Assembly: GCA_026770025.1 (NCBI GenBank)
Contig: JAMXDE010000050.1
Location: 248,001 to 312,000 of the forward strand
Direction: 5' to 3'
DNA: 64,000 nt
Source of the DNA: Craspedostauros australis
Lineage: Eukaryota > Bacillariophyta > Bacillariophyceae > Mastogloiales > Achnanthaceae
The notes beneath the pieces were generated by a model. That model saw only the letters and a list, made by a program, of their open reading frames with translations. It was not told where the DNA came from and searched no databases. Both the position numbers and the translations under genes were made by a program. This document shows positions 6,438-62,509 of this stretch, in pieces (within the stretch, counting starts at the first letter, position 1; each line of letters begins with the position of its first letter).

Positions 6438-7352
6438 TGTGGAGATTGTTTGTCTGTCTGTGCGTCTGTTGCTGCTTGTCAATATGCGATTGATGTGTCT
6501 GTTGCTGTGTCGTTATTGTAGGTATAATATCTATCTTCGATTACGATGCATGTCCACGCCAACGAGGATGATGCGGTTGTTGTGATGCCTGTAACAGCCT
6601 CCTCTCTCTGTCTCTCTTTGGACTCTTCACGAAGTTGTCGACCGTTGCTCTCTGTTTGTGTGACTTTGGACGCGGCGAATTTGTCTTCTGCTTTGCCGTT
6701 TGGTTTTGCTTCGTGTTTTGTTTTTGTTCGTGCTGTGTTGGGAGTCGTGATGGTAATTTATTATTATCTCCAAATGGATCCAAAACAGCGTATCCAATCA
6801 CGAACATACCATTCCCTATCCTTGTTGTCTTCCACGTAACATTTTGAGTTGAGTCGCACGTCTACGGGACACGTTTGCAAGAAGGAACCAAATCGAAGTC
6901 TAAACACGGCTGAGCTGTCACCTTCGCGCACCGATCCAAAAAGAAGAGACGTTGATACCGCTCAAAACTGCACAGGGAGAGTGCGAAACTGGAGAGTGAG
7001 GATGGTTCAACAGCGAATCCTCCCACACCAATGCGAAAAATCATGACGCAACGAATGTGATGACGATGGAGGAATGATTGCATAGCCACAAAACCACAAC
7101 AGACACAAACACAATCGCAAACACAGTCATCAACGTAACAATACAGTACGAGTACTCTATCTCCTCACTTCACACCTCGCATTCTTGCAGAGGCCTGCCC
7201 CCAAGCAAACGATGACAAGCACCTCAGCTTGTGCTCGCCAAGCACTGGAGGGGCAGACATCCGACGGAATGAGAAATGACGCAGCCACCACTATCGCGAA
7301 CAGCATGGATGACGGTTCGCTCAAGACCTCCACCACCCATGCGAGCACATCG
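6438..7352. other. Divergent intergenic region
   Basis: This 915-bp stretch lies between the starts of the secreted protein gene (leftward) and the ERO1-fumarate reductase gene (rightward). It includes a CT-rich patch near 6600-6620 and AT-rich sequence around 6755-6800. No gene was seen. The ERO1 frame is open back to an ATG at 7185, but those 56 residues are polar and precede the signal peptide. Confidence 0.5.
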
Positions 7353-10300
7353 ATGAGTAGACGACACAGAGCGCAGCATGCGGCAACCATGCTGCTCGCA
7401 TTGATGGCACCTTGCCTCATCCGTGCTCTGGATTCTCCCACGCGCTTGGCCAAGGAGACTTCTCCCAACACCAATAATGAATGGCGCAGATCCGCATCGC
7501 CGACCTGGATGCCCGACACGGTGTTCCCAACAGGACAGATCGATGATACGCTGTGCCAGATGGAGGATCTGGAGAAGGCCAACGATTCGCAGTTGCATTC
7601 CATTCTCAACGAATTGAAGCACCAGGCATTCTTCCGAAACTTCGTTGTGGACTTGGAACACAACTGTCCGCTGCAATCGACGAAAGTGCATGCCGATACC
7701 AAGGGTGGTGTGTCCAGCAGCAGCAGTAGCACTAGCAGCAGCAGCACGAGCACTAGCACTAGCACTAGCACAACGGAGGCAACACCACCTTTGGGAAGTA
7801 CAGAACCAGAGGAGGACGAATTCGAGTGTTCTGGTGGAGCGGATGAGCTCGATGACGATGCCGAACCGCTCTGCACCGTTGATACGGGAAGCGATGATGC
7901 CATGGGAGATTTCGGATTTGGTTTTGGAGCCTCGTCAGGCTTTGGCGGCGGTATGGGATCGAGTTCCGCAACACCAGCAACATCCTCGTCCAAATCGAAG
8001 TCTTCGGCAGCATACGATGATCTGGAATCCAACGCACTGAACTCAATTCAGCGGGAGGGATTCCACTCGCAGCAACAGCAGGATGCCTTCGCATGGAAGA
8101 AGCAGACCGACATGGTCGTCGGCGAGGCAGAACCATGCGATGGGGATGACGACGATCCGTTGCCGGAGCATTTCTGGATGGACATCTGCTCCAACATCAA
8201 CGCCGGCGACACCACCAAGGTCGTCGACCTCGCAAAGAATCCAGAGCGCAACACGGCCTACGACGGCAAGCATATCTGGGACGCCATTTACGAGGAGAAT
8301 TGCATCGCGCAGAACTCACAGCAGGAGATGTGTCTCGAAGAACGCATCCTCTACCGTCTCATCAGTGGTCTGCACACCTCCACCACGCTCAGCATCGCCA
8401 AGAACTACTACCCGCCGTCCAAGAAGAAGAACCGCACCTCCTACGAGGCCAACCCGGAGTACTTCATGGACAAGTTCCAGGACCATCCAGAGTACATTCG
8501 CAATCTCCACTTCGCCTACGTCGTCATGCTGCGTGCCGTCCGAAAGGCGTCCAGCCACCTCTACGACTACCCAATCCACACGGGCAACAGCGTGGAGGAT
8601 GACGCCGCATCGATCCTCCTCAAGCGGTTGCTGGACTCAGCCATCCTGCGCTCCTGCAGCAGCGTCTTCTCCGCCTTCGATGAATCGGTCATGTTCCACG
8701 AATCGTCGGGCGACGTCGTCAGCCTGCAGCAGAACTTCAAGGGCGTCTTCCACAACATCTCCAGCATCTTGGACTGCGTCCAGTGTCAGCAATGCAAGCT
8801 GCACGGCAAGATGGCCATGCTGGGATACGGCACTGCATTGAAGATTCTATTCGTACCGCAGGACCTCCTCACGTTGGAACGCAACGAGGTCGTCGCCCTG
8901 ATCAACACCATCGCGCGCCTCTCCGAGAGTATCGTCGAGGTGCGGGAATTGACATCGCTGTACTGGGAGACGCAGCACAAGAAGGTGCAGGCACTGGAGG
9001 CCGTCACACCGCCGGACACGTCCAAATCGGGTGCTCTCACGGTGGATTCCTTCGATTTGCTCGACATCGTCGTGGGATTGATCTCCTCCCTGGGCCGGGA
9101 AGGCCGCATCTCGGTGGATCGAGAGACGGAACTCATCGACCTCGCGCTGCAGCGACATCCAGAGCTTCTCGTGCTGGCCAAGCACTACAGCGAGGACACC
9201 GATCGTTTCCTGCTCCTGGCACGGTCGATCGGATCGCTCCCCGATCAGGAAGCTACTGAACCGCCTCAGCCAGATGCCGTCATCGTCGGCAGCGGGTTGG
9301 CGGGATTGTCCGCCGCCCTCAACATCCTGGACCGTGGCGGTTCCGTCGTGATCGTCGAGAAGGAGCATCTTCTTGGCGGCAACTCCAACAAGGCCAGCTC
9401 CGGCATCAACGCCTGCTGTCCGCAAAACCAAACCTATGGAGACTTTATCGACAGCTTCCGCAACGACACCATCAAATCCGCCGGTGAAGTCGCCGATCTC
9501 GACTTGATCGAGACGCTCGTCACGAACAGCGGCGACGCCGTGCAATGGTTGAAGAACCGCGTCGGCGTGGATCTGTCCCTCCTCGCGCAGCTCGGTGGTC
9601 ACTCCTACAAGCGCACGCACCGTCCCAGCAACGGCATGGCGGGCGCCGAGATCATCTACCACATCCAAAAGGCAGTGCGCGCCTACGAAAAGACGGGTCA
9701 AGTCAAGATCATGGTCGACACGAAAGTCATGAAGCTCGTGACGCAGGGTGATCGCGTCATTGGTGTCTCGTGCGAAACGCCGAACGGGCCCACCGATATT
9801 CTCGCCGACAATGTTGTCCTCGCCACGGGCGGGTTCGCCGCGGACAGATCCAACGGTTCCTACCTCGAACGGCACAGACCCGAGTTCATGTCCATGCCTG
9901 CTACGGCCGGTGCGTTCTCCACCGGAGACGGCATCACACTAGCTACAACACTGGGCGCGGCGACGCGTGACATGGACAAGGTCCAGATCCATCCAACCGG
10001 CTGGATCGATCCCAAAGATCCGCACAACCCCAGCAAGATCCTGGCAGCCGAACTGATGCGTGGCGTCGGCGGCATGCTCATCAACGATGATGGCCAACGC
10101 TTTTGCAACGAGCTGGGAACGAGAGCGTACGTCACGGACAAGATGTTGTCCCACAATGCCAATTACACCAAGACCGGCAAGTGGGACCCGAGCTCCGAAG
10201 TCCCAACCTTCAATCTCATCCTCGCTTCCGAAGCAGCGGCGGATGGCAAGAAGCACGTCGATCTGTACACCCACAAGGGTTTGCTGACCAAGCTCGAAGG

Positions 10301-10982
10301 CATCGATGCACTGGCCAAGCACACTGGGATCAAGAAGAGCAAGCTCGTCTCCACCATCAAAGAGTATCAATTCGCCGCGCTATCAGGCAGCGACGAGTAC
10401 GGCAAGACGTCGTTCCGTGGTGTGGCCGGCAAAAATCTGTCGAAGGAGACTTTCTATGCCGGAAGAGTGACGCCGGTCCTGCATTACTGCATGGGTGGCA
10501 TCAAGATCGACCACGATGGCAATGTGCTGCGTGATGATGGCACTTACATCGAGGGTCTCCATGCTGCCGGTGAAGTGACTGGCGGCGTGCACGGCAACAA
10601 CCGGTTGGGCGGCAACTCCCTGCTCGAATGCACCGTCTACGGCACCATCGTGGGCATGAAACTGCCAGTGAAGGCCACCACGGACCGGTCCTCGCACAAT
10701 GTGGGATCAAAAGCGGCGACCACGCAATCCAAGGCGGTCAAACAGCTTCCATCCATCACGGCCGCAGAGCTGGCAACGCACAACACGGTGGATGATCTGT
10801 GGGTGGCGGTCCATGGCACCATCTACGACTTCACGGACTTTGCCGATGAGCATCCCGCTGGCGCCGAGTCCATCATCAAGCTGGCCGGAACAGACGGCAC
10901 AGCGGCCTTTGAAGCCGTCCACAACGAAGGCCTGTTAGATGACTTCGAAGAGGACAAGAAGGGCATCCTTGTTAGAGCGTGA
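7353..10982 (+). CDS. ERO1 - fumarate reductase - cytochrome b5 fusion protein
   Basis: A single uninterrupted frame encodes 1,209 residues from the ATG at 7353. That start places a signal peptide (AATMLLALMAPCLIRA) at the N-terminus; an ATG at 7185 would add 56 polar residues. Residues about 60-545 are ERO1, the ER flavin oxidase that re-oxidises protein disulfide isomerase. They include HIWDAIYEENC, CLEERILYRLISGLH, NLHFAYVVMLRAVRK and the active site CVQCQQC (475-481), then GTALKILF. A Ser/Thr-rich and acidic insert occupies 119-225. After a helical linker, residues about 641-1100 are a soluble fumarate reductase flavoprotein: VIVGSGLAGLSAA, GGNSNKASSGINA, GHSYKRTHRP, VVLATGGFAAD, QIHPTGWIDP, FCNELGTRAYVT and HGNNRLGGNSLLECTVYG. 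The last 90 residues are cytochrome b5 with heme ligands in DEHPAGAES and VHNEGLL. No KDEL-type tail is present. Confidence 0.93.
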   Translation: MSRRHRAQHAATMLLALMAPCLIRALDSPTRLAKETSPNTNNEWRRSASPTWMPDTVFPTGQIDDTLCQMEDLEKANDSQLHSILNELKHQAFFRNFVVDLEHNCPLQSTKVHADTKGGVSSSSSSTSSSSTSTSTSTSTTEATPPLGSTEPEEDEFECSGGADELDDDAEPLCTVDTGSDDAMGDFGFGFGASSGFGGGMGSSSATPATSSSKSKSSAAYDDLESNALNSIQREGFHSQQQQDAFAWKKQTDMVVGEAEPCDGDDDDPLPEHFWMDICSNINAGDTTKVVDLAKNPERNTAYDGKHIWDAIYEENCIAQNSQQEMCLEERILYRLISGLHTSTTLSIAKNYYPPSKKKNRTSYEANPEYFMDKFQDHPEYIRNLHFAYVVMLRAVRKASSHLYDYPIHTGNSVEDDAASILLKRLLDSAILRSCSSVFSAFDESVMFHESSGDVVSLQQNFKGVFHNISSILDCVQCQQCKLHGKMAMLGYGTALKILFVPQDLLTLERNEVVALINTIARLSESIVEVRELTSLYWETQHKKVQALEAVTPPDTSKSGALTVDSFDLLDIVVGLISSLGREGRISVDRETELIDLALQRHPELLVLAKHYSEDTDRFLLLARSIGSLPDQEATEPPQPDAVIVGSGLAGLSAALNILDRGGSVVIVEKEHLLGGNSNKASSGINACCPQNQTYGDFIDSFRNDTIKSAGEVADLDLIETLVTNSGDAVQWLKNRVGVDLSLLAQLGGHSYKRTHRPSNGMAGAEIIYHIQKAVRAYEKTGQVKIMVDTKVMKLVTQGDRVIGVSCETPNGPTDILADNVVLATGGFAADRSNGSYLERHRPEFMSMPATAGAFSTGDGITLATTLGAATRDMDKVQIHPTGWIDPKDPHNPSKILAAELMRGVGGMLINDDGQRFCNELGTRAYVTDKMLSHNANYTKTGKWDPSSEVPTFNLILASEAAADGKKHVDLYTHKGLLTKLEGIDALAKHTGIKKSKLVSTIKEYQFAALSGSDEYGKTSFRGVAGKNLSKETFYAGRVTPVLHYCMGGIKIDHDGNVLRDDGTYIEGLHAAGEVTGGVHGNNRLGGNSLLECTVYGTIVGMKLPVKATTDRSSHNVGSKAATTQSKAVKQLPSITAAELATHNTVDDLWVAVHGTIYDFTDFADEHPAGAESIIKLAGTDGTAAFEAVHNEGLLDDFEEDKKGILVRA

Positions 10983-11238: not shown

Positions 11239-14088
11239 TCACGACATCACCAACGATGCTCGCGATTGGATTTCCGGCGTCAATTCTCCCACGATGTGAA
11301 TCACAAACAGCAATCCATGCTTCTGCAACGCCGATGACGCTGATGAGAATGCCGTCATGGATGGAGTATCCTCCACCATCTCGCGAATCATCCATTGCTC
11401 CGATGCGTCGTCACATTCCATGGCCACGGCGATGCAATCGTTGTGGCGTTGCAACGCGAGCAGATCGTCGCGCAAATTCGTCGTTTGTGTGGAATCGTAA
11501 AGATTCTTCATCATTTTGTGCTGCGACGGACGGATGGTTTGTGGCAGGCAAGCGGCACCTCTCATGGTTTGGATGGACTTCCAGAGTTTCTGGTGTTTGG
11601 TTGGATTGTTGCAGATGACAATGACGGTGGGGGTCAGTATGTGATTCTTCCAATAGTCCAGCACAGTCCTGCAATTGAATGGAACGGACATGTTGGAATG
11701 GGAATGAGAATCAGATTCGTGGAGATGCAGAATGCCCGAGGGGTCCTTGCGAAGCTCCAGACGGTCATGTCCCACCAGGAGAGCGATGTTGTTGTCGTTG
11801 GGACGAAATTGAACCTGAACGGTCAACGTTGGAGTGTGCGGTAAGGTCTGCATCATCTTCCGCACGTAGTATCCGACCATTCGAATTTGTTGGACGATGG
11901 TTCGGATGTCGCTGTCGTCGTCATTGTGGCCACCATCCAATCGCACGAAGACGTTGGATGCTTTGGCCGTTTGTTCCACCAATCTCGTCAGGTACATTTC
12001 GTAGAATTGTTTCTGATCTTGACCGGAAATCGCTTGCAACGTGATTGTGGACAACGTTTGGAACATGGGAAGACGACGCAGCATGTTGCCGCAATCCTCT
12101 TCGAGCTTGTAATTGGACGTGTAGATGGTGACGATGGAACGATCCTTGTGGATTCCGCGTTTGTCAGAGTTGCGCGGCACGCTTTGGTTAGCTCTGCCCA
12201 GGTTTGCTGCCGCATCCTCGCTGCTGTAGTGCCGACCTGAAAATCGTTGATGGATCATCTGAGTGACGTTGGTCTGATCCGGGTCGCTTGGCATTTCCTC
12301 CATGCCCAGCACGACCAGCCCCGGTTTATTCTGAGTGCGTGTCATGCGCCGTTGCTGGATAATGCCCATGATGGACATGTCATTGTTGTTGGGACGCAAT
12401 TCGAAGTCGGAATTGAGCACATCATGTGGTTTGTTCAAGTTTTGCTTGATGAAACGGACCATCAGGTTGGAATCGAGATGCGCCGCGATGGCTTCGGATA
12501 GTGCCGGCGGGAAGTGTCGCACGAAGGATGACTTGCCGCAACCTGCTCTGCCGTGAATGTACAGTGCAAGTGGCGATGTCGGTTCGAAGTGCGCATGGAG
12601 GTAGATTGGTTGTGATACGAGTATGTCGTTGGTGATGGAAGTCGAAGATTCGGATGATGATGTTGCAGATGCCTCCGGCGCTGCGCAGATGCCCCAAAGC
12701 AAGAATCTCCGCAAATCGCCGTGAAGTTGTTGACGAAAGTTTGATGAGCAAATGTACCCGTTGTGTTCCAATGCTCCCCAGAAGGTGGTCATCATCTCAT
12801 CGACGAGTTTGATGATGCCATGCTGCAGAATGATCCATTGCGATGGGAGGAACTGAAAGAGCGAGGATGGTCTTGTCGTGTCGATGGCTGGATCGTACAG
12901 GTACACGGTGATTCTGTCAAAGTTTGCATCGCTGGATGGTCGAAACATCATGCCGGTGATGGTGCAGGATAGATCACGTTGGAAGCGATTCACGAGGACA
13001 TTTGACAGCGTACTGCTCTGTGCCATGACGAGTTCCAACTCTCGTCGCAACTGCGAAGACTGGATGGTGCTGTTGCGGCTTTGATGGCAGATGACATCAA
13101 TGAGCTTGTCCATCCGTTGCTGTTGTTTATCTGCTGGGGTGGTGGAGCTCGTGACATGTTCGTTCGTGTCGATGGCTTCAGCTGTTGCTGCTCCCGTCAC
13201 ACTCACTTTGGATGTGGATGCGCAGGACAAATTGATTTTGCAGGACCCTTCAAGCGTTTCAACCTCCGAACGGATTTGTGCAATATTCAAAGCCTCCGAA
13301 CACACCTCCCGCAAGCGTTGACAGAATGCGATGCAGATGTACGCTGCTCTGCAGTCTCGTTGGAAGATCTGTTCCAGCTGCTGCTGCTGCGGATGGAGAC
13401 CCATCATCGTGACGAGATACAGTCGGCTCGTATGTACCAAGTCGCACGACTCCTGCGCAGTTCCGTTGGACATGCAGTCGGCCATAGATTTCTTGTAGAT
13501 CGACACCGCAGGTCTCGGCGAGCATAGCAGCGACGTCCGAACGCCTACACGCTGGAAGATGGAGCGCAATTTGTGAACGGAACTGCCGACGGTTCCATCT
13601 TGGATGATCGCTGTCGGCAGCCCGGATTGAAGGCAGAGATCGTGTACTGCCCTCATCGTCGTCGAGTCGTCTTCGCTATCGTGAGACCCATCGCCATGGC
13701 GCGAACCACCAGCAACAGCCCCAGCATCACCATCGTCCACTTGAGGTCGCTTGACCTCCAACTCATCGCTGATCCTTGCGCGCTTGGCATCCCGTGGGTT
13801 ATGCACCGTCATCTTTGCTGCTCCGCTCTCTTCTTCTCTTATGCGTCCTGCATTAGACTGATGAGTCGTCTCCTTGCTTCCGTCGATGTCGATGTCAAGT
13901 GGCTTTCGATGGCAATTGGTAGTGGACTGTAGTGGGTCGTACAATGGCTCGCTTTCTACCATGCGACCACAATCCAACGAACAAACACCATAACGCCAAT
14001 CGCCACGCATCCAAAGCAACGAAGAACTCGATGGAAAGGAAAGATCGCATTGGTGAGATGATTCGTGGAGGTGTTTGTTTGTTGGCAT
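11239..14088 (-). CDS. Orphan P-loop NTPase, 949 residues
   Basis: This long intron-free ORF belongs to no family I recognise. A nucleotide-binding core is visible: Walker A HGRAGCGKSS at about residue 513, a Walker B-like strand GLVVLGMEEMP at about 589 (Glu where a catalytic acid is expected) and a sensor-1-like strand SIVTIYTSN at about 654, followed by MLRRLPMF. The spacing resembles AAA-type ATPases. The first 150 residues are polar with a basic, nuclear-signal-like RDAKRARISDELEVKR, and there is no signal peptide. The N-terminal 350 residues contain many Gln and Cys and no known domain. The start is uncertain: ATGs at 14088, about 13962 and about 13812 are all in frame. Confidence 0.75.
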   Translation of the reverse strand: MPTNKHLHESSHQCDLSFPSSSSLLWMRGDWRYGVCSLDCGRMVESEPLYDPLQSTTNCHRKPLDIDIDGSKETTHQSNAGRIREEESGAAKMTVHNPRDAKRARISDELEVKRPQVDDGDAGAVAGGSRHGDGSHDSEDDSTTMRAVHDLCLQSGLPTAIIQDGTVGSSVHKLRSIFQRVGVRTSLLCSPRPAVSIYKKSMADCMSNGTAQESCDLVHTSRLYLVTMMGLHPQQQQLEQIFQRDCRAAYICIAFCQRLREVCSEALNIAQIRSEVETLEGSCKINLSCASTSKVSVTGAATAEAIDTNEHVTSSTTPADKQQQRMDKLIDVICHQSRNSTIQSSQLRRELELVMAQSSTLSNVLVNRFQRDLSCTITGMMFRPSSDANFDRITVYLYDPAIDTTRPSSLFQFLPSQWIILQHGIIKLVDEMMTTFWGALEHNGYICSSNFRQQLHGDLRRFLLWGICAAPEASATSSSESSTSITNDILVSQPIYLHAHFEPTSPLALYIHGRAGCGKSSFVRHFPPALSEAIAAHLDSNLMVRFIKQNLNKPHDVLNSDFELRPNNNDMSIMGIIQQRRMTRTQNKPGLVVLGMEEMPSDPDQTNVTQMIHQRFSGRHYSSEDAAANLGRANQSVPRNSDKRGIHKDRSIVTIYTSNYKLEEDCGNMLRRLPMFQTLSTITLQAISGQDQKQFYEMYLTRLVEQTAKASNVFVRLDGGHNDDDSDIRTIVQQIRMVGYYVRKMMQTLPHTPTLTVQVQFRPNDNNIALLVGHDRLELRKDPSGILHLHESDSHSHSNMSVPFNCRTVLDYWKNHILTPTVIVICNNPTKHQKLWKSIQTMRGAACLPQTIRPSQHKMMKNLYDSTQTTNLRDDLLALQRHNDCIAVAMECDDASEQWMIREMVEDTPSMTAFSSASSALQKHGLLFVIHIVGELTPEIQSRASLVMS

Positions 14089-15768: not shown

Positions 15769-18700
15769 ATGGGTACAAGCAAGGCTGGCAGCGTCCACAG
15801 CAACGGGAGCAGAAGCGGCAGAAGCGGCAGAAGCGGAAGGAGCGGTAGAAGCGGCGGCAGTGGCAGGAAGAGTACTGCCAGCAACATGAACGACGGACGA
15901 TGCCGTTCATTGGGCATCATGGGAACGATGTCGGATGCTGGCAAAACCACCATCACGGCAGGCATCTGCCGCATCTTCTCCAACGCCAAACGTCAGGTGG
16001 CACCCTTCAAGGCGCAGAACATGAGCAACAACGCCGCACCCGCGCTGCTGCCCAGCCATGAACGCCGCGAAGTTCTCTACTCCGCCTTCCAACGTGCCAT
16101 CCAAACCAAACCTCGCAGCAACCAGCACAACAAACCCGATCACGGATACGGCGAGATCGGCACAGCGCAGGCCCTGCAGGCCGAGGCCTGCCGGTTGCTT
16201 CCGCGCGTCGAGATGAATCCAGTCCTATTGAAGAGCGGCGGCAAGAACGAGCACGGTGAATACATGTGCTCCGTCGTCGTGCTGGGCAAGCAAATTGCCA
16301 AGGAAACGTACGGCGACTTGAAGCAGCGCACGACGACGTTGCGCGCCATGGTCCTGGCATCGCACACGGCCTTGATGGAAGCGACCGATGCCGATGTCAT
16401 CGTGCTGGAAGGGGCCGGCAGTTGCACGGAATTGAACCTGATCGATCGCGATATCGTCAATCTGCCGTTGGTGCGGTCCTTGAACTGTCCCTGGCTGCTC
16501 GTGGCGAACATCGATGTCGGCGGTGTCTTCGCGCAGATCGTGGGCACGAAGGCGTGCGTGTCGGAACGCGATTGGGAGCTGTGCGCGGGAATCATCGTCA
16601 ACATGCTGCGCGGAGAGGCCAAGTACTTTGAGCCTGGTCCGAAAATGATTGAGGTACGTGGTTTTGCGCCAGTTTGGTACGAGTGCAGGGTGGGTTGTTT
16701 ATGAAGCCCGCAGTTCATAGTTGGCGTGGATCGAGCGTTGCACGTTGCCTGATTAATGCATCCTGCGATTCTGAAGGCTGCAACATATCTTCATGATATC
16801 TTCCACTCTCGATCTTGCGGTGACCAACGACTACTGGATCACATACTTTCTGCACTTCTCACATTCGCCTTCCTCACCCCATTTCTTCTGATAATCGTTC
16901 CATACTCACACTAATACCCACAGACGATGGTGGGAAAGCCAGTCTTCGTGGTGCCGTATCTGTACAATCTTAACTTGCCCGAGGAGGATGGTCTTGGCAT
17001 CGAACGGCGATTGGCCAAGGAGAGCAAACCTGTCATCTCCAAGCGACCAACAAATGATGCGACGGACACGTCCTCAACGGCATCGAACTCGAACATTCGC
17101 AAACCTGCGAACGTTGTCGTCATTGCGTATCCTCACACGGCGATCGCGGACGATTTGGTCCCGTTGGAAGCAGACACTCGGTTCAACGTGGAGTGGAGAC
17201 GCACGAACATACCCAAACCGTATCCCCACACCACCGCCGTCATCCTGCCGGGATCTAGGTTGACGCGATTCGATTTGAGATGGCTGCGCAATTCCGGTTG
17301 GGCCGAGTTCTTGCAAGAGCATGCCGTTGCTGGCGGTCACATTTTGGGATTGTGCGGAGGATTCCAAATACTGGGTCGTAGAGTGGAAGATCCAGATGGC
17401 GTTGAGGGCGTCGGCGAGACGGACGGCATGAACCTCCTGCCGCTCATCACCACCATCGAGCCGGCCGAAAGTAAGGTCGTGCGACCGCGCAAAGCGAAGC
17501 TCATCCGTTCCAACCTGCGAGTGGAAGGTTTCGAATTGCATTGCGGCAGCACCACCATCATCAACGACGGCCGCAAATTCGAACCGCTGTTGCGATTCAA
17601 TTCTGGCGAAACCGACGGTTTGACGGATGGCCGCGTGTCGGGCACGTATCTGCATGGTATCCTGCGATCTGCCGAAGCGAGAGTCGAACTTCTCGTGCCC
17701 AAGGCCAGCCGAGATACGCTGCCAGAGGTGGACATGACTGAGATCGTCGATCCGTTGGATCGTCTCGCTGATCATCTTGTGTCATGCGGTCTGACGATCG
17801 ATGTGCTGGACAACATGCTATCGAAACAAGTCTTTATTGGTCCGGATCCGAGGAAACGGCGTGCAAAGAAATCGCCGCCGCCGTCTCCGAGTCCCTCTGC
17901 ACAAAGAGGAGGAGGGAGCCCTCAGGGGGCGGAGGAAAAGAAGGAACCGGATTTTACAGAAACAGAAGGATCAGCGGGAGACACCGACTTCGATGAATGG
18001 GGGCGAAACGAAGACAGCGAAGATCAAGCAGGCGGCATGGGCAGCGCAGACTTTTTCAATCAACAAGAACCGACCGAACCAAAAGCCGAACCGGAAACAG
18101 AGCTGAACGAAGAAGCGTCGTTGGGATCGAAATCATCTGCGTCTGCATCGTCAAAGGCTCTCTCGAAGGCGTCGTCGAAGGCGTCGTCGAAAGCGTCTTC
18201 CAAGGCATTGTCGAAGGCCTCGTCAAAGGCATCATCAAAACCTGCATCTGTACGATCTCAGACATCATCGAAGGCACCATCCAAGCCTGCATCCACCAGA
18301 TCACAAGCGTCATCGCACGGCTCACCCAAACCTGCATCCGCAAGGTCCCAGACGTCATCCAAAGCTCCATCTGCGGCATCATCGAAGGGATCTTCGAAAT
18401 CAGCATCTTCAAGACCGGAGGTGTTATCCAAATCGCTCTCAAAGGCGTCGGTCAAGTCTTCTGATTCAGAATCACCATCCGAGGCGTCATCCAAGGCCTC
18501 TTCTAAAGCGCCGTCGAAGGCATCATCGAAAGCCTCTTCTAAAGCACCGTCGAAGGCATCATCGAGAGCGTCATCAACAGCTCCGTCTAAACCGTCATCG
18601 TCCAAGGCATCGTTGAAGTCTCCGTCAAAGGCAGCGTCGGTGTCATCAGTATCTTCGTCATCAGCATCTTCGTCGTCATCAGCATCTTCGTCGTCATCAT

Positions 18701-19893
18701 CATCATCATCAGTGCGAAAACAGTCCAAGCCGAGCAAAGCAGAACCACCATCACCTGCATCGATCCCATCGCTATCATCGTCAGCACGAAGAGGAATAAT
18801 AATCGAAACGGTGGAGGAAGAAGATTCTGACAGCCAGAGCGAATCCGAGAACATCACAGAGCAAATGGCACAGATGGATTTTGAGGATCCGTTTGCGAAT
18901 GTCAAAACACCTGCAGAAGCTGAAGAGGATGATGACTTCTTTTCAAACGATGCATTTGGAGGAACAGCAGAATCTAAGGCGATCAAACCAGACGACGGTG
19001 TGTTCGGAGGAGCAAATCTGCAAGTTGAAGATGTCGAAGAAGTGGAAGAAGAATTTGAAGAATTGGTCTTCGAGGATGTACCCTTCGAGACGACCTTTGA
19101 CGGATCAAACGGAGGGTCCTACGAGGAGGAGGAAGTGGTGGAAGATGATGATGTAGAAGAAGAGGAGGTTATCGAAGAGTTCATTGATGAGGAATATGAC
19201 GTTGAAGTCGTCGAAGAAAGTGTGGGGTCCAGATCGTCGGCAAGATCGGGCGCAGCTTCTGCCGCGAATTCGGCAAAGAGCTCTCGCAAGGGATCGGTGG
19301 CGGACTCTGCATCAAGGGCTAGCCGAACATCTCGCAGCGGTTCGCAGAAAAACTCGGTCGCTGGATCCGTCGCATCGTCGAAATCCGGAAACAGTTCACG
19401 CAACGGCTCCCGTGCCGGTAAGGCTGCCGAAGCCGACGTGGTATCGCGATCGGGCCGTAGTTCGCGCTCAGGATCGGCTGCAGATTCAGCATCGCATTCG
19501 AGTCAAAAGTCGTATGCCCGTTCTTCCGGAGATTCGGCGTGGCTTTCCAACGACAATTCCGATGCAGGTTCAGCCATGGGCTCCGTATCACGATCAAGCC
19601 GCAAATCAAATGCAAGCTCTGCAGGCGATTCAGCATCGCGTTCAAGCAGGAGATCGCACGCGAGTTCTGCAGGAGACTCGGTTTCACGCTCCAGTCGCAA
19701 ATCGTATTCGACCTCCACAAGTGACTCTCAATCTCGCTACAGCAACGAGTCCTATGGAAGCTCTGCAGGAAGTTCTGCGCCAGGTTCAACATCGCGAAGT
19801 TCACGCAAAGGATCGAACTCGAGCTACGGGTCTGCATCAAGTTCCTCGTCTGGGTCTGGGTCTCACTCGACGTTCGAAGCAGATTTTGGATAG
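15769..19893 (+). CDS. cobQ: Cobyric acid synthase (CobQ) with long Ser/Lys-rich tail
   Basis: Exons are 15769..16653 and 16924..19893 (intron 270 nt, GTACGT...CAG, phase 0), giving 1,284 residues. CobQ/CbiP is the glutamine-dependent amidase of the corrin ring in vitamin B12 synthesis. An (SGR)n leader precedes the ATPase domain: GTMSDAGKTT (52-61), VAPFKAQNMSNN, GEIGTAQALQAEACR, MNPVLLKS, VLEGAGSCTELNL and VANIDVGGVFAQIVGT. The glutaminase domain has VILPGSRLT, the nucleophile in GLCGGFQ (Cys439) and the His in GTYLHGI (His539). After about residue 605 the same frame continues as KASS-type repeats (about 680-900), an acidic stretch and SRSSRKS-type repeats to the end. No organelle signal is visible. 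The two enzymatic domains look intact; the tail is not part of the family. Confidence 0.92.
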
Positions 19894-29176: not shown

Positions 29177-30406
29177 TGCAAGTCAATCCTCGTCCTTGTT
29201 CTCTCCGATGTGAACAGAGAGGTGCGTCTTTCACATCCTTTCCCTCCTCTCTCTGTTGTTCCAATCTTCCCTCCTTTGTTCTTCGGGAAAACCCCTGCTT
29301 TGGTCGGAATGGCGGCTCGGATGGCAAGTGTCGCTTGGAATGAATGTTCCTCTTCGATGATTGTGCCTTTGTTCCTCTTCGTTTCACGAGCTGATCATAG
29401 CCATTTGCGATGTATCATGCGTCATGTGTCATGTGCACAACCACAGAGAGAAAGGCTGAGACGATGTGGATGTGAATGGGGATGCGGACTCCTTGCCATC
29501 GTGTTGCTTGTTGTTGATGGTTGGCCGATTTGAGAAGAACACAAAACGTTGTCTCTGTTTGGTTGGCTTTGCGAAAGACAGATGTGAGTTGTTCTTCCTC
29601 TGCGTCAGATTTATCGTGCCGGATGTGCACGTTTGAAGCACGCTGTTCCTCTCGTCGAACTACGTCTATCGGACAAACCGTTCGTGTCCATGTCCGTTGC
29701 GACATCTTCCATGTTGACGAGGTTTCTCCGATTCGCGAGGCGAGCATCAAGTTGCAACTCGGCCATCGTGGTTGCGATTGCGATTGCGCTTGCGGTCGTG
29801 ACAAGATACAACCTCGATCGTGTGGGCCCTCTGCGTTGAATCGGACGGGTGTGATTTGTCATTGCACCATCGACATTCTTCACGCATGTGCGGGTACGAT
29901 CGTGCTTCGTGGAACAGATCCAGCGTGGAAGCTGCAAATCGCATCATACAACAGCGAAGACGCAAACAAAGCGCACGCTCCGAAGACGGCGTGGACATGA
30001 CGGAACGGCGCTTGGCTTGCAAAACTCGAGAGGCATCGAAATGCGCCACGCGTGACAACTCCTGCCCACCGTGGGACTCTTCCGTTTCATCAGTCATCCT
30101 GGTGCTGCTAGGATCTCGAGTATGTGGGCAGAGCCTCTCACGCCAGCAGGCGATGGCATTACGAATATCATCAGTTGCGACCTGACACAAACGGAACCGA
30201 CACGACCGACAAAACTCAAGGAAACCAGAATGATGAACTCAAGCCACGGCCAGCTCCACACGAGGAAATCGCCATGCCGCCTTCGGCTCGAACCAACAAC
30301 AACGCGGGAAGGACCGAGGACGACCCGACCTTGGGATCGCTTTCGGATAAGATCCATAATTTCCGTCATTGACAGCAATCCGCCAATCACAATACTGGCT
30401 CAGACC
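29177..30406. other. Divergent intergenic region
   Basis: This 1,230-bp stretch separates the ABCC start (leftward) from an ankyrin-BTB start (rightward). Several open frames cross it, including one of 159 codons at 29521-30000. None shows a known domain, so none is called. The ankyrin-BTB frame is open back to 30071, without homology to its paralogues in that part. Confidence 0.45.
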
Positions 30407-31615
30407 ATGGCGACCTTCAGCATCGATCAGCTGACCAACGCTGCGCACGTGGGCAATTTAGAGATCTTCAAGAAATGGAAGCAAGCGAACCCACATGTAT
30501 CTATCGACGCAGAAAAGACTTCTCGTCACGAGACGCCACTTCACTATGCATGCGTGAGTGGCAAACTAAACATTGCGAAGTACTTGGTGGAATCCTGCGA
30601 CGCAACAGTCGATGCCAAAGGTACTCCAGGACGAACAGCACTCGACTACGCATGTTCTGCCAACCATTTGGAAGTCGTCAAGTACCTCGTGGAATCCTGC
30701 CAAGCAGATATCACAATCGTAAACAACAAGCAACAAACAGCGTTGCAGGTTGCTGAGAACTCCAACAATGCTGCTATCGTGAAGTACCTATCAAACCCAC
30801 TCAAACCAGTTGCTTCGGAGTTCGTGCACAGCGCCAAGGTGACTCATGCACTTTTCCGGACGAACCACAACAACATTAATCAGCAGAGACTCGATGCTTT
30901 CCAAAACAACAGGATGGCGGACATCACCTTCCTCGTCGGCCGTGATGATCAACAGCAACAAATCAAGGCGTACAGCGGTATTCTTCTTGTCACCATACCA
31001 TCCATCCAGGCGATAATCGATCAGAGCATTGGCGATCAAGTTGAGACCGAGGCTTCGGCAGACAGCACAAGCGATGGCATCATCCCTCTACCGGACTTCC
31101 ATCCCGAACATGTTCGTTACATTCTCCAGTACATCTACTCAGCTGATACATCATTCTTGGATGACGACGACATGGCCAACATGGGCAATCTACAGCAACT
31201 GCTGATCGTTGCGGCTCATTTCGGTTGTTGGCAACTCAAAGTCGCCATCGAAGCCAAGTTGGTTGCTGAGCATCTCATGCAACCAACGTTGATAGACCTG
31301 TTGCTCTTCGCCAATGAGCATGAGTGCGAAGTGTTGAAGGATTCGGCCGTCCGACTTGCGGCGAAGGATGCGAGCGCGCTACTTTCTGATCCGCAGTTCC
31401 ACAAACTGGGTGGATGCGTCGATCTGATGAAGGCGATCCATCTTGCTCACAAGGACAGCAAGGACAACAGCAGCGACGACGAGTATGAGAAGAAGTCGAT
31501 GGTGGAGCTGTATGGCTGTTTGAATGATTGCAAGGACGTGCGTCTTGAGTCTTACATGGACCGTCCGTCCTTGCTTGAGCTCGTGCGGAAGTCCATATCC
31601 GCCAAGACCGAGTAG
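30407..31615 (+). CDS. Ankyrin-BTB protein (copy A)
   Basis: The 402-residue protein has about three ankyrin repeats: ETPLHYACVSGKLNIAKYLV, RTALDYACSANHLEVVKYLV and a shorter TALQVAENSNN repeat. A BTB/POZ domain follows (MADITFLVGRDDQQQQIKAY, VRYILQYIYSAD), then a BACK-like helical part (LIDLLLFANEHECEVLKDSA). The end shares the family motif with its paralogues: MVELYGCLNDCKDVRLES and MDRPSLLELVRK. BTB proteins often act as cullin-3 substrate adaptors; that is only an inference here. The start was chosen because the paralogues begin with similar residues (MATFSIDQL, MSSITPEQL), although the frame is open further upstream. No intron is present. It is a close relative of the genes at 36558, 54678 and 61184 and of the pseudogene at 34371. 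Confidence 0.88.
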   Translation: MATFSIDQLTNAAHVGNLEIFKKWKQANPHVSIDAEKTSRHETPLHYACVSGKLNIAKYLVESCDATVDAKGTPGRTALDYACSANHLEVVKYLVESCQADITIVNNKQQTALQVAENSNNAAIVKYLSNPLKPVASEFVHSAKVTHALFRTNHNNINQQRLDAFQNNRMADITFLVGRDDQQQQIKAYSGILLVTIPSIQAIIDQSIGDQVETEASADSTSDGIIPLPDFHPEHVRYILQYIYSADTSFLDDDDMANMGNLQQLLIVAAHFGCWQLKVAIEAKLVAEHLMQPTLIDLLLFANEHECEVLKDSAVRLAAKDASALLSDPQFHKLGGCVDLMKAIHLAHKDSKDNSSDDEYEKKSMVELYGCLNDCKDVRLESYMDRPSLLELVRKSISAKTE

Positions 31616-36557: not shown

Positions 36558-38018
36558 ATGGCGAGTACTTGCCACTGCAAGTTGCTGGAAGGAGCCCAAA
36601 ACGGCAACCTAGACACCGTCAAGCTGTGGTGGGAGGAGCATCCAGAAGCTGACGTCAACACAATCACTAACGGCGGAAACGAAACCGCGCTGCATTGGGC
36701 GTGCGTCCACGGACATCTGGACATCGTGACGTACTTGACGGAAGAGTGCAAGGCGAACAGCAACATCCTCAACAAGCGCTTGCTTGCACCACTTCACAAC
36801 GCATGCATCTATGGCTGGCTTGACATCGTGGTGCATTTGGTGGAATTCTGCGAGGCTCACGTCAACACCCAAACCAAGAAAGGCAGGACCCCGCTCCACT
36901 ATGCGTGCAGATACGCCCGCTTAGAGATCGTCAAGTACCTCACCGAGTCGTGTGATGCTGACATTCACATTGAAGATTACGCCGGGCTGAAACCACGCCA
37001 CCTGGTGGGCGGGTTCCGTTGCGGGGAGGTCACCGACTACATCTTCCAACGCTTGCTCAATGACATGCCTCTCAACAAGAGCCTCTTTGACACCGCAGGC
37101 ATGTTCTCCGGTACGACTCCCAACAATGTCAACATTGATCGAATGCAAGCTCTCGAAGACGACACGCTGGCAGATGTCACGTTCGTCGTGGGATACGGCA
37201 CGATACAAGAAAAAATCAAGGCCAACAGCTCCATTTTGGTTGCAACTGTACCATCCCTCAAGACCATGCTGCATGCTGGGATCAAGCACGAAACGCGGAC
37301 CAGGGCTTCTCTCGGTGTGAGCAGCATCGATGATACCATCAGCAGCTTCCATGGAAGTGACAGTGAAGCTGACGCCGATGAAAACAAGGACGACGAGAGC
37401 GGCGACGACAGCGGCGTTCTCATCCACATGGACACGACGCTGCCTGCCGCGAATGCAGCGAAGACAACGATCCTCCTTTCAAACTTTCATCCCATCGATG
37501 TCAAGTACGTCCTCCGGTACATCTACTCAGGAGACTTTTCATTTGTTACCGCTCCCGACATGAAGGATCGCAAGCATCTTAAAAGTTTGCTGGTGGCAGC
37601 AAATCATTTCGATTGCTGGAGACTCCGCGTCATCATCGAGGCAGAAATGATCGAGCAGCATTTGTCGAAGGCCACCGTTGTCGAATTGATTCTCTTTGGT
37701 GATGCAAACGGTTGCGAGGCGCTGAAGGATGCATGTTTCCGGTTTGCGTCCGAAGACCCCCGCAAGTTGTTGGCCGAACCAGGGTTCCATGATCTGGCCA
37801 AGAATTCCAAGCTGTTGCAGGAATTTCTCACATACTACAACAGAGACGGACCGAACGGCGGCATCGACGACAAGGCCAGCAAGATGTCGACGATGGAGAT
37901 CTACGACTGGCTCGACAAAGATGGCACTTGGTTGAAGCAGCATCATGATCGTACGAAGTTGTTGGCGAAGGTGCGTAAGGACATGAAAAAGCCCAAGAAA
38001 AGGGCAGCGGAGTGGTGA
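36558..38018 (+). CDS. Ankyrin-BTB protein (copy B, divergent)
   Basis: The 486-residue protein has the family layout but is the most divergent intact member here. The ankyrin repeats are ETALHWACVHGHLDIVTYL, LAPLHNACIYGWLDIVVHLV and RTPLHYACRYARLEIVKYL. The BTB part is LADVTFVVGYGTIQEKIKAN...VKYVLRYIYSGDFSF, followed by VELILFGDANGCEALKDAC. An acidic insert of about 60 residues (SEADADENKDDESGDDSG) sits inside the BTB domain. The end motif is altered (MSTMEIYDWLDKDGTWL, DRTKLLAKVRKDM) and is followed by a basic tail KKPKKRAAEW that may be a nuclear signal. It is intron-free. The function is unknown; a cullin-3 adaptor role is possible. Confidence 0.88.
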   Translation: MASTCHCKLLEGAQNGNLDTVKLWWEEHPEADVNTITNGGNETALHWACVHGHLDIVTYLTEECKANSNILNKRLLAPLHNACIYGWLDIVVHLVEFCEAHVNTQTKKGRTPLHYACRYARLEIVKYLTESCDADIHIEDYAGLKPRHLVGGFRCGEVTDYIFQRLLNDMPLNKSLFDTAGMFSGTTPNNVNIDRMQALEDDTLADVTFVVGYGTIQEKIKANSSILVATVPSLKTMLHAGIKHETRTRASLGVSSIDDTISSFHGSDSEADADENKDDESGDDSGVLIHMDTTLPAANAAKTTILLSNFHPIDVKYVLRYIYSGDFSFVTAPDMKDRKHLKSLLVAANHFDCWRLRVIIEAEMIEQHLSKATVVELILFGDANGCEALKDACFRFASEDPRKLLAEPGFHDLAKNSKLLQEFLTYYNRDGPNGGIDDKASKMSTMEIYDWLDKDGTWLKQHHDRTKLLAKVRKDMKKPKKRAAEW

Positions 38019-54677: not shown

Positions 54678-55985
54678 CTATTCCCACCAAGCAGCAGGCT
54701 CGCTCTCCCTTTCGAACATGGCAGTCCGGACCACTTCAAGCAACGCGGGGCGATCCATGTCTGACTCCAAGTGCACGCCCTTGCACTCATCCAAGCATCC
54801 GTACAGCTCCACCAGCGACATGTTCTCATACTTGTCGCAGTCGGCGTCGTCGCTACTTGCCTTGTTGTCTTTGGCGTTGTGAGCGACATGAATGCCCTTC
54901 ATCAAATCGGCGCATCCAGCCAGCTGGTCGAAGTGCGGATTGCCGATCAACGCGTTCGCGTCCTTCGCTGCCATCTGGATAGCCATCTCCTTCAGAATTC
55001 TGCATTTGTGTTCATCTGCAAAGAGCAGCAGCTCAATCAGCGTGTCTGGCGACAGATGCTTATCGACCAGCTTGGCTTCGACGATCACCTTGAGTTGCCA
55101 GCAATGGAAATGGGTTGCGACAATCAGCAGCTGCTGCAAGTCTTCTGGTCTGGCCATGTCATCTGCATCGAGGCATGATGTCTCGCCGGAGTAGATGTAC
55201 TGCAGCGTGTATCGAACGTGCGCGGGATAGAAGTCCGGGAGAAGAATGGTGCCTTCGTTGGTGCTCCGATCGATCATCGCCTTGGTCGATGGCACCGTGA
55301 TCAACAGAATGCCGCTGTACGCCTTGATTGCCTCCTGTTGGATATCACGGCCGACGAGGAAGGTGAGATCGGCCATGCTGCTGTTCTGCAGAGCATGCAG
55401 TTTCTGTTGCCCGATGCTGTGGTGGCCCAACTTGAGCATTTCTGCCGTCGCATCGTCTGTTTTCGCGTGGTTTGGATCTGCTTCTTGGGAGCAAGATGAC
55501 AAGTACTCTGTGCAAGGATTAGAGTCCGTAAGTTTGGCAACCTGCAATGGTGTTTGGTTGTCGTTATTGCAGACTGTGATGTCTGCTTTGCCCAATTCCA
55601 CCAGATACTTGACAATGTGAAGCTGACGGTGTGTGGCAGCACAGTGGAGTGGCGTGTATCCCATACTATCTTTGGCATTGACGTCTGCACCACATGATTC
55701 CACCAGACACTTGATCGCATCCATGTTTCTCATCTTGATTGCGTAGATGAGTGTCGTGTTACCATCATTGTTTTTGATATCGACGGTTGCATGGCACGTT
55801 TGTACCAAGTACTTCATGACGTCCAAGTTCCCTCTTCCACACGCGATGTGAAGCAGGGGAGATTCATCGGGGACCATGATCATGTCGACATGTATGCCAG
55901 GCTCCGATTGCCACCATTCCCTGATGGTGGCAACACTCCCTCGCCTTACAGCGATGATCAGCTGTTCAGGAGTGATGCTCGACAT
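54678..55985 (-). CDS. Ankyrin-BTB protein (copy C)
   Basis: The 435-residue protein begins MSSITPEQLI, matching copy D at 61184-62509; the frame is open further upstream. The ankyrin repeats are ESPLLHIACGRGNLDVMKYL, TTLIYAIKMRNMDAIKCLV and YTPLHCAATHRQLHIVKYLV. The BTB part is MADLTFLVGRDIQQEAIKAY...VRYTLQYIYSGETS, then a BACK-like LIELLLFADEHKCRILKEM and the family end motif MSLVELYGCLDECKGVHLES, MDRPALLEVVR. Its ankyrin half is almost identical to copy D at DNA level, whereas the BTB half is only about as similar as to other copies. The function is unknown; a cullin-3 adaptor role is possible by analogy. Confidence 0.88.
   Translation of the reverse strand: MSSITPEQLIIAVRRGSVATIREWWQSEPGIHVDMIMVPDESPLLHIACGRGNLDVMKYLVQTCHATVDIKNNDGNTTLIYAIKMRNMDAIKCLVESCGADVNAKDSMGYTPLHCAATHRQLHIVKYLVELGKADITVCNNDNQTPLQVAKLTDSNPCTEYLSSCSQEADPNHAKTDDATAEMLKLGHHSIGQQKLHALQNSSMADLTFLVGRDIQQEAIKAYSGILLITVPSTKAMIDRSTNEGTILLPDFYPAHVRYTLQYIYSGETSCLDADDMARPEDLQQLLIVATHFHCWQLKVIVEAKLVDKHLSPDTLIELLLFADEHKCRILKEMAIQMAAKDANALIGNPHFDQLAGCADLMKGIHVAHNAKDNKASSDDADCDKYENMSLVELYGCLDECKGVHLESDMDRPALLEVVRTAMFERESEPAAWWE
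55501..55920 (-). repeat. Gene-conversion tract, partner of 62025..62444
   Basis: Over 420 aligned bases I count seven differences from 62025-62444 (about 98% identity), without gaps. Similarity drops on the BTB side of 55500 and becomes patchy beyond about 55930. Confidence 0.8.
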
Positions 55986-61183: not shown

Positions 61184-62509
61184 TTACTTCTTTGCCGCTG
61201 CGGCCTTCCGAACCAGATCAAGCAAGGCTGAACGATCCATGTCGGACTCCAAGTGTACGTCCTTGCATTCATTCAAGAAAGTGTACAGCTCCATCAAGGA
61301 CATGCTGTCGTACTCGTCATTGTGGGTGCCGATCGGTTTGATGCTTTTGCGAGCGAGATGAATCTCCTTCATCAAATCGGCACATCCAGCCAGTTTGAAA
61401 AACTGTGGATCGTCAACCAGCGCGTTTGTATCTTTCGCTGCCATTTTCATGGCTTCTTCCTTCAGAATCATGCAGTTGTACTGATTCGCAAAGAGCAACA
61501 GATCGACCAAGGTGTCTTGCGATAGGTGCTCATCAACCAGCTTGGCTTCAACGATGATCTTGAGCTGCCAGCAACGAAAGCGGCATGCAACCACGACAAG
61601 TTGCTGTAGGTCATCCGCGTTGGTCATGTTGTCGCCATCCAGGCATGACGCATCACCTGAGTAGATGTACTGCAGCACGCATCGAACATGTGTGGGATTG
61701 CAGTCAGGGAGAGAGATGGTACACTGAGTGTCGGTGCCGGTGTTGACGGTAGTGGGGGCATCGCCTGTTTCAGCTTGATTCTGAATGCTTTCATTGAGCA
61801 ACGCTTCGATGGACGGCACTGAAGTCAACAGAACCGCGCTGCATGCCTTGATTGCTTGCTGTTGATCGTCGCGACCGGCGAGGAAGGTGAGATCGGCCAT
61901 GGTGCTGTTTTTGAGTGCGCAGACTTTGTGGTGGTCGATGTTGCGATGGCTCAGTTGAAGCAGTGCTTCTTTTGCTCGGATTGCTTCCACTTTCTTCGAC
62001 TCCGTTTGTTGGGAGCAAGTCGACAAGTACTCTGTGCAAGGATTAGAGTCCGTAAGTTTGGCAACCTGCCATGGTGTTTGGTTGTCGTTATTGCAGACTG
62101 TGATGTCTGCTTTGCCCAATTCCACCAGATACTTGACAATGTGAAGCTGACGGTGTGTGGCAGCACAGTGGAGTGGCGTGTATCCCATACTATCTTTGGC
62201 ATTGACGTCTGCACAACATGATTCCACCAGACACTTGATCGCATCCATGTTTCTCATCTTGATTGCGTAGATGAGCGTCGTGTTACCATCATTGTTTTTG
62301 ATATCGACGGTTGCATGGCACGTTCGCACCAAGTAGTTCATGACGTCCAAGTTCCCTCTTCCACACGCGATGTGAAGCAGGGGAGATTCATCGGGGCCCA
62401 TGATCATGTCGACATGTATGCCAGGCTCCGATTGCCACCATTCCCTGATGGTGGCAACGCTCCCTTGTTTTGCAGCGATGATCAGCTGTTCAGGAGTGAT
62501 CCATGACAT
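61184..62509 (-). CDS. Ankyrin-BTB protein (copy D)
   Basis: The 441-residue protein begins MSWITPEQLI. The ankyrin repeats are the same as in copy C with about ten residue changes over 166 residues (for example W for L in NQTPWQVAK). The BTB part is MADLTFLAGRDDQQQAIKAC...VRCVLQYIYSGDAS, with an extra insert (ETGDAPTTVNTGTDTQC) absent from copy C. The BACK-like part is LVDLLLFANQYNCMILKEEA and the end motif MSLMELYTFLNECKDVHLES, MDRSALLDLVRK. Several ankyrin consensus positions carry unusual residues, so the repeat half may be under relaxed constraint. The frame extends upstream to 62611 without family similarity. The function is unknown. Confidence 0.87.
   Translation of the reverse strand: MSWITPEQLIIAAKQGSVATIREWWQSEPGIHVDMIMGPDESPLLHIACGRGNLDVMNYLVRTCHATVDIKNNDGNTTLIYAIKMRNMDAIKCLVESCCADVNAKDSMGYTPLHCAATHRQLHIVKYLVELGKADITVCNNDNQTPWQVAKLTDSNPCTEYLSTCSQQTESKKVEAIRAKEALLQLSHRNIDHHKVCALKNSTMADLTFLAGRDDQQQAIKACSAVLLTSVPSIEALLNESIQNQAETGDAPTTVNTGTDTQCTISLPDCNPTHVRCVLQYIYSGDASCLDGDNMTNADDLQQLVVVACRFRCWQLKIIVEAKLVDEHLSQDTLVDLLLFANQYNCMILKEEAMKMAAKDTNALVDDPQFFKLAGCADLMKEIHLARKSIKPIGTHNDEYDSMSLMELYTFLNECKDVHLESDMDRSALLDLVRKAAAAKK
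62025..62444 (-). repeat. Gene-conversion tract, partner of 55501..55920
   Basis: About 98% identical to 55501-55920 over the ankyrin-coding half (seven differences counted), in the same orientation. Confidence 0.8.

Follow-up and report, generated by a model that had tools for sequence, protein, structure and literature searches.

Two yeast proteins, the endoplasmic reticulum (ER) oxidase Ero1 and the soluble fumarate reductase (FRD) Osm1, offer the closest described parallel to the gene reported here. Osm1 accepts electrons from the FAD of Ero1, either directly or through free FAD, and thiols are oxidized with fumarate in the absence of oxygen (PMC6242907). The pair binds weakly, at ~150 μM by isothermal titration calorimetry and ~200 μM in the discussion of the same article, and docking sets Ero1 near the N-terminal site that the heme domain occupies in flavocytochrome c3 (Fcc3); fusing the Fcc3 heme domain onto Osm1 abolished binding, although that domain was misfolded (PMC6242907). 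Because the flavins lie >20 Å apart in the docked model, direct transfer is controversial according to the authors (PMC6242907). Separately, cytochrome b5 and cytochrome c have both been reported to accept electrons from Ero1p in vitro when oxygen is absent (PMC2672033, citing Gross 2006). Here we describe a gene of Craspedostauros australis, found in a 64,000-nucleotide stretch of contig JAMXDE010000050.1 (positions 248,001 to 312,000; hereafter the window), in which ERO1, a soluble FRD and cytochrome b5 are encoded in one open reading frame (ORF). On balance, we favour the reading that its product is a natural, probably ER-luminal, three-cofactor oxidoreductase that would pass thiol electrons intramolecularly to fumarate.

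The fusion contains the same two enzymes as the yeast pair, for which fumarate serves in vitro as the final acceptor of disulfide formation, and its ERO1 domain is N-terminal to the FRD, the position at which docking puts Ero1 on Osm1 (PMC6242907). By contrast, the yeast enzymes are two separate proteins of weak affinity, and Osm1 has no heme domain. Shewanella Fcc3 resembles the fusion in its FRD fold, catalytic residues, N-terminal electron-feeding domain and possession of a heme in the chain, but it is bacterial, its N-terminal domain is a tetraheme c-type domain rather than ERO1, and the heme of the fusion is a C-terminal b5. Flavocytochrome b2 is likewise a flavin enzyme with a fused b5, and that b5 accepts electrons from the flavin; it differs in being an FMN lactate dehydrogenase with the b5 at the N terminus.

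One frame, three redox domains

The features are listed below in window coordinates, with residues numbered from the first ATG of the frame.

7212..10982, + strand: uninterrupted ERO1–FRD–b5 fusion ORF of 1256 codons, identified by its frame and Pfam matches, with coding signal continuous through the linker
7353..7427, + strand: putative signal peptide, Met48–Ala72, MSRRHRAQHAATMLLALMAPCLIRA, with a hydrophobic core and residues at −3 and −1 that permit a cut after A72
7590..8939, + strand: ERO1 domain, residues 127–576 (Pfam PF04137, 8.6e-83; yeast and human ERO1 structures matched)
7665..7874, + strand: shuttle-cysteine region with a low-complexity insertion (C152, C206 and C221), recognized from the sequence and its repeat codons
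8238..8255, + strand: intact NPERNT motif, residues 343–348, part of the ERO1 FAD site, located by alignment
8775..8795, + strand: CVQCQQC active-site cysteines, residues 522–528 (C522, C525 and C528), located by alignment
8940..9272, + strand: linker, residues 577–687 (111 residues), coding, predicted helical with low to moderate confidence, matched by no separate Pfam domain and by nothing convincing in the Protein Data Bank (PDB)
9273..10661, + strand: soluble FRD domain, residues 688–1150 (Pfam PF00890, 4.8e-82; Osm1 structure 5glg, 1.4e-76; fold match to Osm1, TM 0.86)
9990..10604, + strand: FRD catalytic residues H927, E947, R950, R971, H1091 and R1131, aligned to Osm1 H281, E301, R304, R326, H435 and R477
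10662..10757, + strand: tether between FRD and b5, residues 1151–1182, mostly of very low predicted confidence
10758..10931, + strand: cytochrome b5 domain, residues 1183–1240, with heme ligands H1214 and H1237 (Pfam PF00173, 3.8e-18; PDB 3ks0, 1.5e-13)

An earlier note on this DNA had read a single frame joining ERO1, fumarate reductase and b5, and both the ORF and the three Pfam domains bear this out; no intron is needed. The start it used, 7353, is the in-frame Met48 of the 1256-residue frame (7212–10982), and with further in-frame ATGs upstream at 7212, 7269 and 7305 the start codon is uncertain. A frame of 1256 codons is not a chance event, because stop-to-stop frames reached at most 456 codons in 20 simulated 64-kb sequences (first-order Markov). 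The linker, which the earlier note had put at residues 545–640, runs from about 530 to 640 when counted from Met48 (577–687 in the long numbering), so that its end was placed correctly and its beginning slightly late. G+C content at third codon positions is 0.739 in the linker, 0.740 in the ERO1 part and 0.765 in the FRD part. Scored by the codon usage of a neighbouring gene (11239–14085, − strand), frame 0 came out top in all 14 windows spanning residues 481–780, although three margins were below 0.02 and the least was 0.001. With the gene's own codon table, trained without the linker on a set that overlaps the ends of the windows, it did so in nine of ten, the exception (576–615) favouring a reverse-strand frame. 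The donor patterns GTAAG, GTGAG, GTATG and GTACG are absent from the linker and occur in the ORF only at codons 247, 972 and 1062, and seven polyadenylation-like or TATA-like patterns are likewise absent from the linker. No known domain was recognized in the linker: Pfam picked up nothing there beyond the edge of the FAD domain, and the best PDB match (E 0.021) was judged to be chance.

The PF04137 match of the ERO1 domain is near-complete (profile 1–353 of 354) and scores 278.8 bits against a cut-off of 27; identity in the segments compared is 34% to yeast and 38% to human ERO1. The CVQCQQC cysteines (residues 522–528) are intact, as previously noted. Alongside the CxxCxxC and NPERNT motifs, the domain contains SGLH and LRA; we take NPERxT, SGLH and LRA to be the FAD-site motifs of ERO1. 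The CxxCxxC, NPER and SG(L/F)H motifs are thus shared with canonical ERO1 (human ERO1 alpha and yeast Ero1), from which the fusion differs in its low-complexity insertion, its Cx14C shuttle pair and the added FRD–b5. The C206/C221 pair adjoins the Ser/Thr- and Gly/Asp-rich insertion and may still form a shuttle disulfide. Between C152 and C206, a codon repeat (7713–7775) encodes a run of 21 Ser/Thr residues (168–188), which may differ in length among strains.

In the FRD, FAD_binding_2 matches residues 688–1137 over its full profile (1–414 of 414, 4.8e-82). Yeast Osm1 is the closest solved relative of the protein (1.4e-76), with bacterial Fcc3 and human and yeast ERO1 also among the best matches, and in Foldseek Osm1 takes ranks 1 and 2 (TM 0.85–0.86 over the target). 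The full set of soluble fumarate reductase motifs claimed earlier is present: all six Osm1 catalytic residues, described as conserved and critical in that enzyme (PMC6242907), are kept. Osm1 also uses a second flavin pocket, and of the nine residues named for this free-flavin site or its docked inhibitor (PMC6242907), the fusion keeps four (K727, S729, L944 and Y1019), with five changed or missing, so an Osm1-type second pocket was not recovered among these positions and we do not class the FRD with the Osm1 subtype. Of the same nine residues, three are retained in L023 and five in L024, two unfused FRDs of this genome, and two in Fcc3 (1qo8). The retention of four of nine leans towards direct or heme-mediated transfer, and on this count we rejected a free-FAD shuttle as the chief route. 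Other identities for the FAD domain were considered and set aside: succinate dehydrogenase and L-aspartate oxidase look like separate loci (L021 and L022, named by eye), Osm1 being the best match, and the match to urocanate reductase (6t85, 1.5e-58) is weaker than that to Osm1.

At the C terminus, the Cyt-b5 profile is covered from 1 to 59 of 74, the top solved match is the b5 of yeast cytochrome b2, and H1214 and H1237 both align with the histidines of 3ks0, in agreement with the earlier claim of a b5 domain with both heme ligands. We ran AlphaFold2 on residues 577–1256, leaving out ERO1 and adding 37 bacterial FRD rows to the input. The model (mean pLDDT 73.9, pTM 0.68) predicts most of the FRD well. 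It renders the linker as helices with block means of 40–70, falling below 50 at residues 595–614 and 653–681. Values are also below 50 at residues 1157–1192, a span that includes most tether residues and extends ten residues into b5; across the b5 domain the block means are 33–68, and about 49–68 beyond those ten residues.

Relatives and neighbouring genes

The genome contains 61 light-harvesting complex (LHC) matches and is thus that of a photosynthetic organism. Three of eight LHC stretches begin with a signal peptide followed by A↓F, whereas no such presequence is seen in the frame chosen for the remaining five (a visibly wrong one in two cases). A signal peptide followed by A↓F is the targeting motif of complex red plastids, and these matches and presequences fit an alga with such a plastid. 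One further ERO1 was found in the genome, L020 (contig C44, 1875–3700; 408 amino acids with the stop counted; two exons in the model). It is 22% identical to the fused ERO1 and has CxxxxC and CxxCxxC, yet FPED stands in place of NPER and LTA in place of LRA, and the leader, which reads AEAWA↓FSAS, is plastid-like; it is a possible plastid or periplastid thiol oxidase. Because L020 is divergent and has a plastid-like leader, and because the fused copy is the one with 34% and 38% identity to yeast and human ERO1, the canonical ER copy appears to be the fused one.

Unfused FRDs are represented by L023 (804 amino acids, with b5) and L024 (878 amino acids, without b5), in a list drawn from the 15 of 45 initial candidates that were scored and so perhaps not complete. 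L023 has the same order as the fusion, FRD and then a C-terminal b5, and is 42.0% identical to it over 572 aligned positions; it differs in lacking ERO1, in having two exons in its model and in having a hydrophobic N terminus of its own. Recent duplication from L023 or L024 was rejected in view of identities of 42.0% and 47.5%, respectively. An unrooted tree built from 22 rows (18 bacterial sequences, Osm1, L023, L024 and the fusion FRD) separates the four eukaryotic rows from the bacterial ones (100/99), with the caveats that the Osm1 branch is long and that Osm1 and L024 are unusual in composition. The fusion FRD, L023 and L024 group together at 91/87, below the level that the program stars. 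The simplest history is that an ERO1 gene became fused to an FRD–b5 gene while related unfused genes persisted.

Among other thiol oxidases, the genome holds six Evr1_Alr matches on three contigs (Erv/QSOX-type) and three VKOR matches. Three of the Evr1_Alr matches lie within 20 kb (C53:178365–198060) in open frames of 525–774 codons, perhaps a cluster of QSOX-like genes. Viral contigs searched with the ERO1 part, with the FRD part and with an alignment of ERO1 sequences yielded no confirmed relative. In phage records, 26 matched and none covered 80% of the query; among the ten matches listed, the match falls within the FRD–b5 region or a few residues from it. A scan of genome contigs with the FRD yielded 397 relatives, of which 80, bacterial by title, were kept and served as alignment rows only.

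Elsewhere in the window, two ORFs (15769–16704 and 16927–19893, both + strand) carry CbiA and CobB/CobQ-type GATase_3 domains and seem to belong to a single cobyric acid synthase gene that has a Ser-rich extension. Such a gene is unexpected on an algal nuclear contig because B12 synthesis is generally not attributed to algae. Similar ORFs at 30122–31615, 36558–38018, 54678–55985 (− strand) and 61184–62509 (− strand) form a local gene family; the first has ankyrin repeats and a BTB domain by domain scan, and the other three were likened to it by eye.

Electron route, compartment and alternatives

In the reading we favour, the ERO1 domain would take electrons from thiols of the protein disulfide isomerase (PDI) type and, by way of its shuttle pair and its CxxCxxC site, load them onto its own FAD. 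This FAD would pass them to the FRD flavin within one chain, instead of or besides to oxygen, and the FRD flavin would reduce fumarate to succinate. The covalent link would substitute for the weak Ero1–Osm1 contact of yeast, and the tethered C-terminal b5 heme would most likely ferry single electrons between the flavins, in the role that the heme domain has in Fcc3. A tethered b5 is a plausible carrier across the flavin gap because in vitro reduction of cytochrome b5 by Ero1p has been reported (PMC2672033); its assignment as the wire between the two flavins is nevertheless tentative, and we would put it at somewhat less than an even chance. The earlier suggestion that the b5 exchanges electrons with ER redox partners is thereby sharpened to a proposed ERO1–FRD wire. 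As for its broader claim that the fusion wires disulfide electrons to fumarate, the fusion and the catalytic motifs stand and match the separate yeast biochemistry (PMC6242907), whereas the coupling is something that we infer, as are the ER location, the activity of this protein and the b5 step.

The enzyme is probably ER-luminal. Its leader, described earlier as one signal peptide, is plausible, with a cut possible after A72 and with a segment (MLLALMAPCLI) that no other 11 residues of the protein surpass in hydrophobicity, but its hydrophobicity is modest over a 19-residue window (1.46, below FRD stretches at 1.58 and the linker at 1.55) and its start is uncertain. The protein has eight sequons. 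We consider it very unlikely that the fusion works as a thiol oxidase ending on fumarate outside the ER, in the mitochondrial intermembrane space, the periplastid space or both through alternative starts. The Arg/His-rich leader with its several in-frame ATGs, the A↓F plastid-type leader of the second ERO1 and the dual localization of yeast Osm1 (PMC9516139) would suit such a location; however, ERO1 is an ER family, and the leader combines a core of hydrophobic residues with a site that signal peptidase could plausibly cut, and lacks Phe at +1. Least credible of all is an artefact of assembly or gene model in which two adjacent genes are read as one: the donor patterns tried were not exhaustive, but the linker has no stop and none of the four donor or seven polyadenylation and TATA patterns, its codon signal is unbroken, and the assembly comprises 74.8 Mb in 90 contigs.

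A more serious alternative, although still an unlikely one, is co-delivery without wiring, in which the fusion merely brings an oxygen-using ERO1 and an FRD–b5 into one compartment at equal dose, with the FRD fed by other donors through the b5 or free flavins. The presence of an unfused FRD–b5 elsewhere in the genome (L023), the long linker, the very low predicted confidence of the b5 tether and the retained ERO1 core motifs are all consistent with it. Against it, in vitro work on yeast Ero1 reports both reduction of b5 (PMC2672033) and electron donation to Osm1 (PMC6242907). Nor is any NADH–b5 reductase known from the lumen.

Several observations weigh against intramolecular transfer to fumarate in the ER. 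The signal peptide is plausible but short and modest, its start codon is uncertain, and the protein lacks a KDEL-like tail. In the ERO1 domain, C206-x14-C221 replaces CxxxxC, placing 14 rather than 4 residues between the shuttle cysteines, and a Tyr aligns where human and yeast ERO1 have an Arg, which we take to be R287 of the human enzyme. We also count the supply of fumarate to the ER lumen as a weak point. The b5 may be how the FRD itself receives electrons, since FRD–b5 exists unfused (L023), and the change in the second flavin pocket is not specific to the fusion, because the pockets of L023 and L024 likewise differ from that of Osm1. With further Erv/QSOX-type and VKOR-type matches in its genome, the cell is not bound to depend on the fusion enzyme. 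The GTAGGC donor of the L020 model matches none of the four donor patterns. In the yeast work, the binding site was mapped with a chimera whose heme domain was misfolded (PMC6242907), and the ER does not contain the metalloproteins that were tried with Ero1p (PMC2672033).

Significance for disulfide formation

The partners are known; the covalent arrangement appears to be new. We found no natural ERO1–fumarate reductase fusion in the titles and abstract beginnings listed by our searches of the open-licence literature, although one may sit unremarked in protein databases such as UniProt. A bolder reading, which we regard as possible but doubtful, is that the fusion is a single-chain enzyme of ER ‘disulfide respiration’, with fumarate as the terminal acceptor and the b5 as the wire, independent of oxygen, free of peroxide and the cell's main ERO1-type ER oxidase. 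Its claim to that last role lies in the second ERO1, the sole other copy found, being divergent and carrying a plastid-type leader.

Oxygen-free disulfide formation in eukaryotes is an open question, and the yeast Ero1–Osm1 proposal leans on weak binding and on flavins judged too distant for direct transfer (PMC6242907). A fusion in the order that this proposal implies, carrying the type of heme that Ero1 reportedly reduces, constitutes independent evolutionary evidence, and offers one purifiable protein in which the whole electron chain may be measured.

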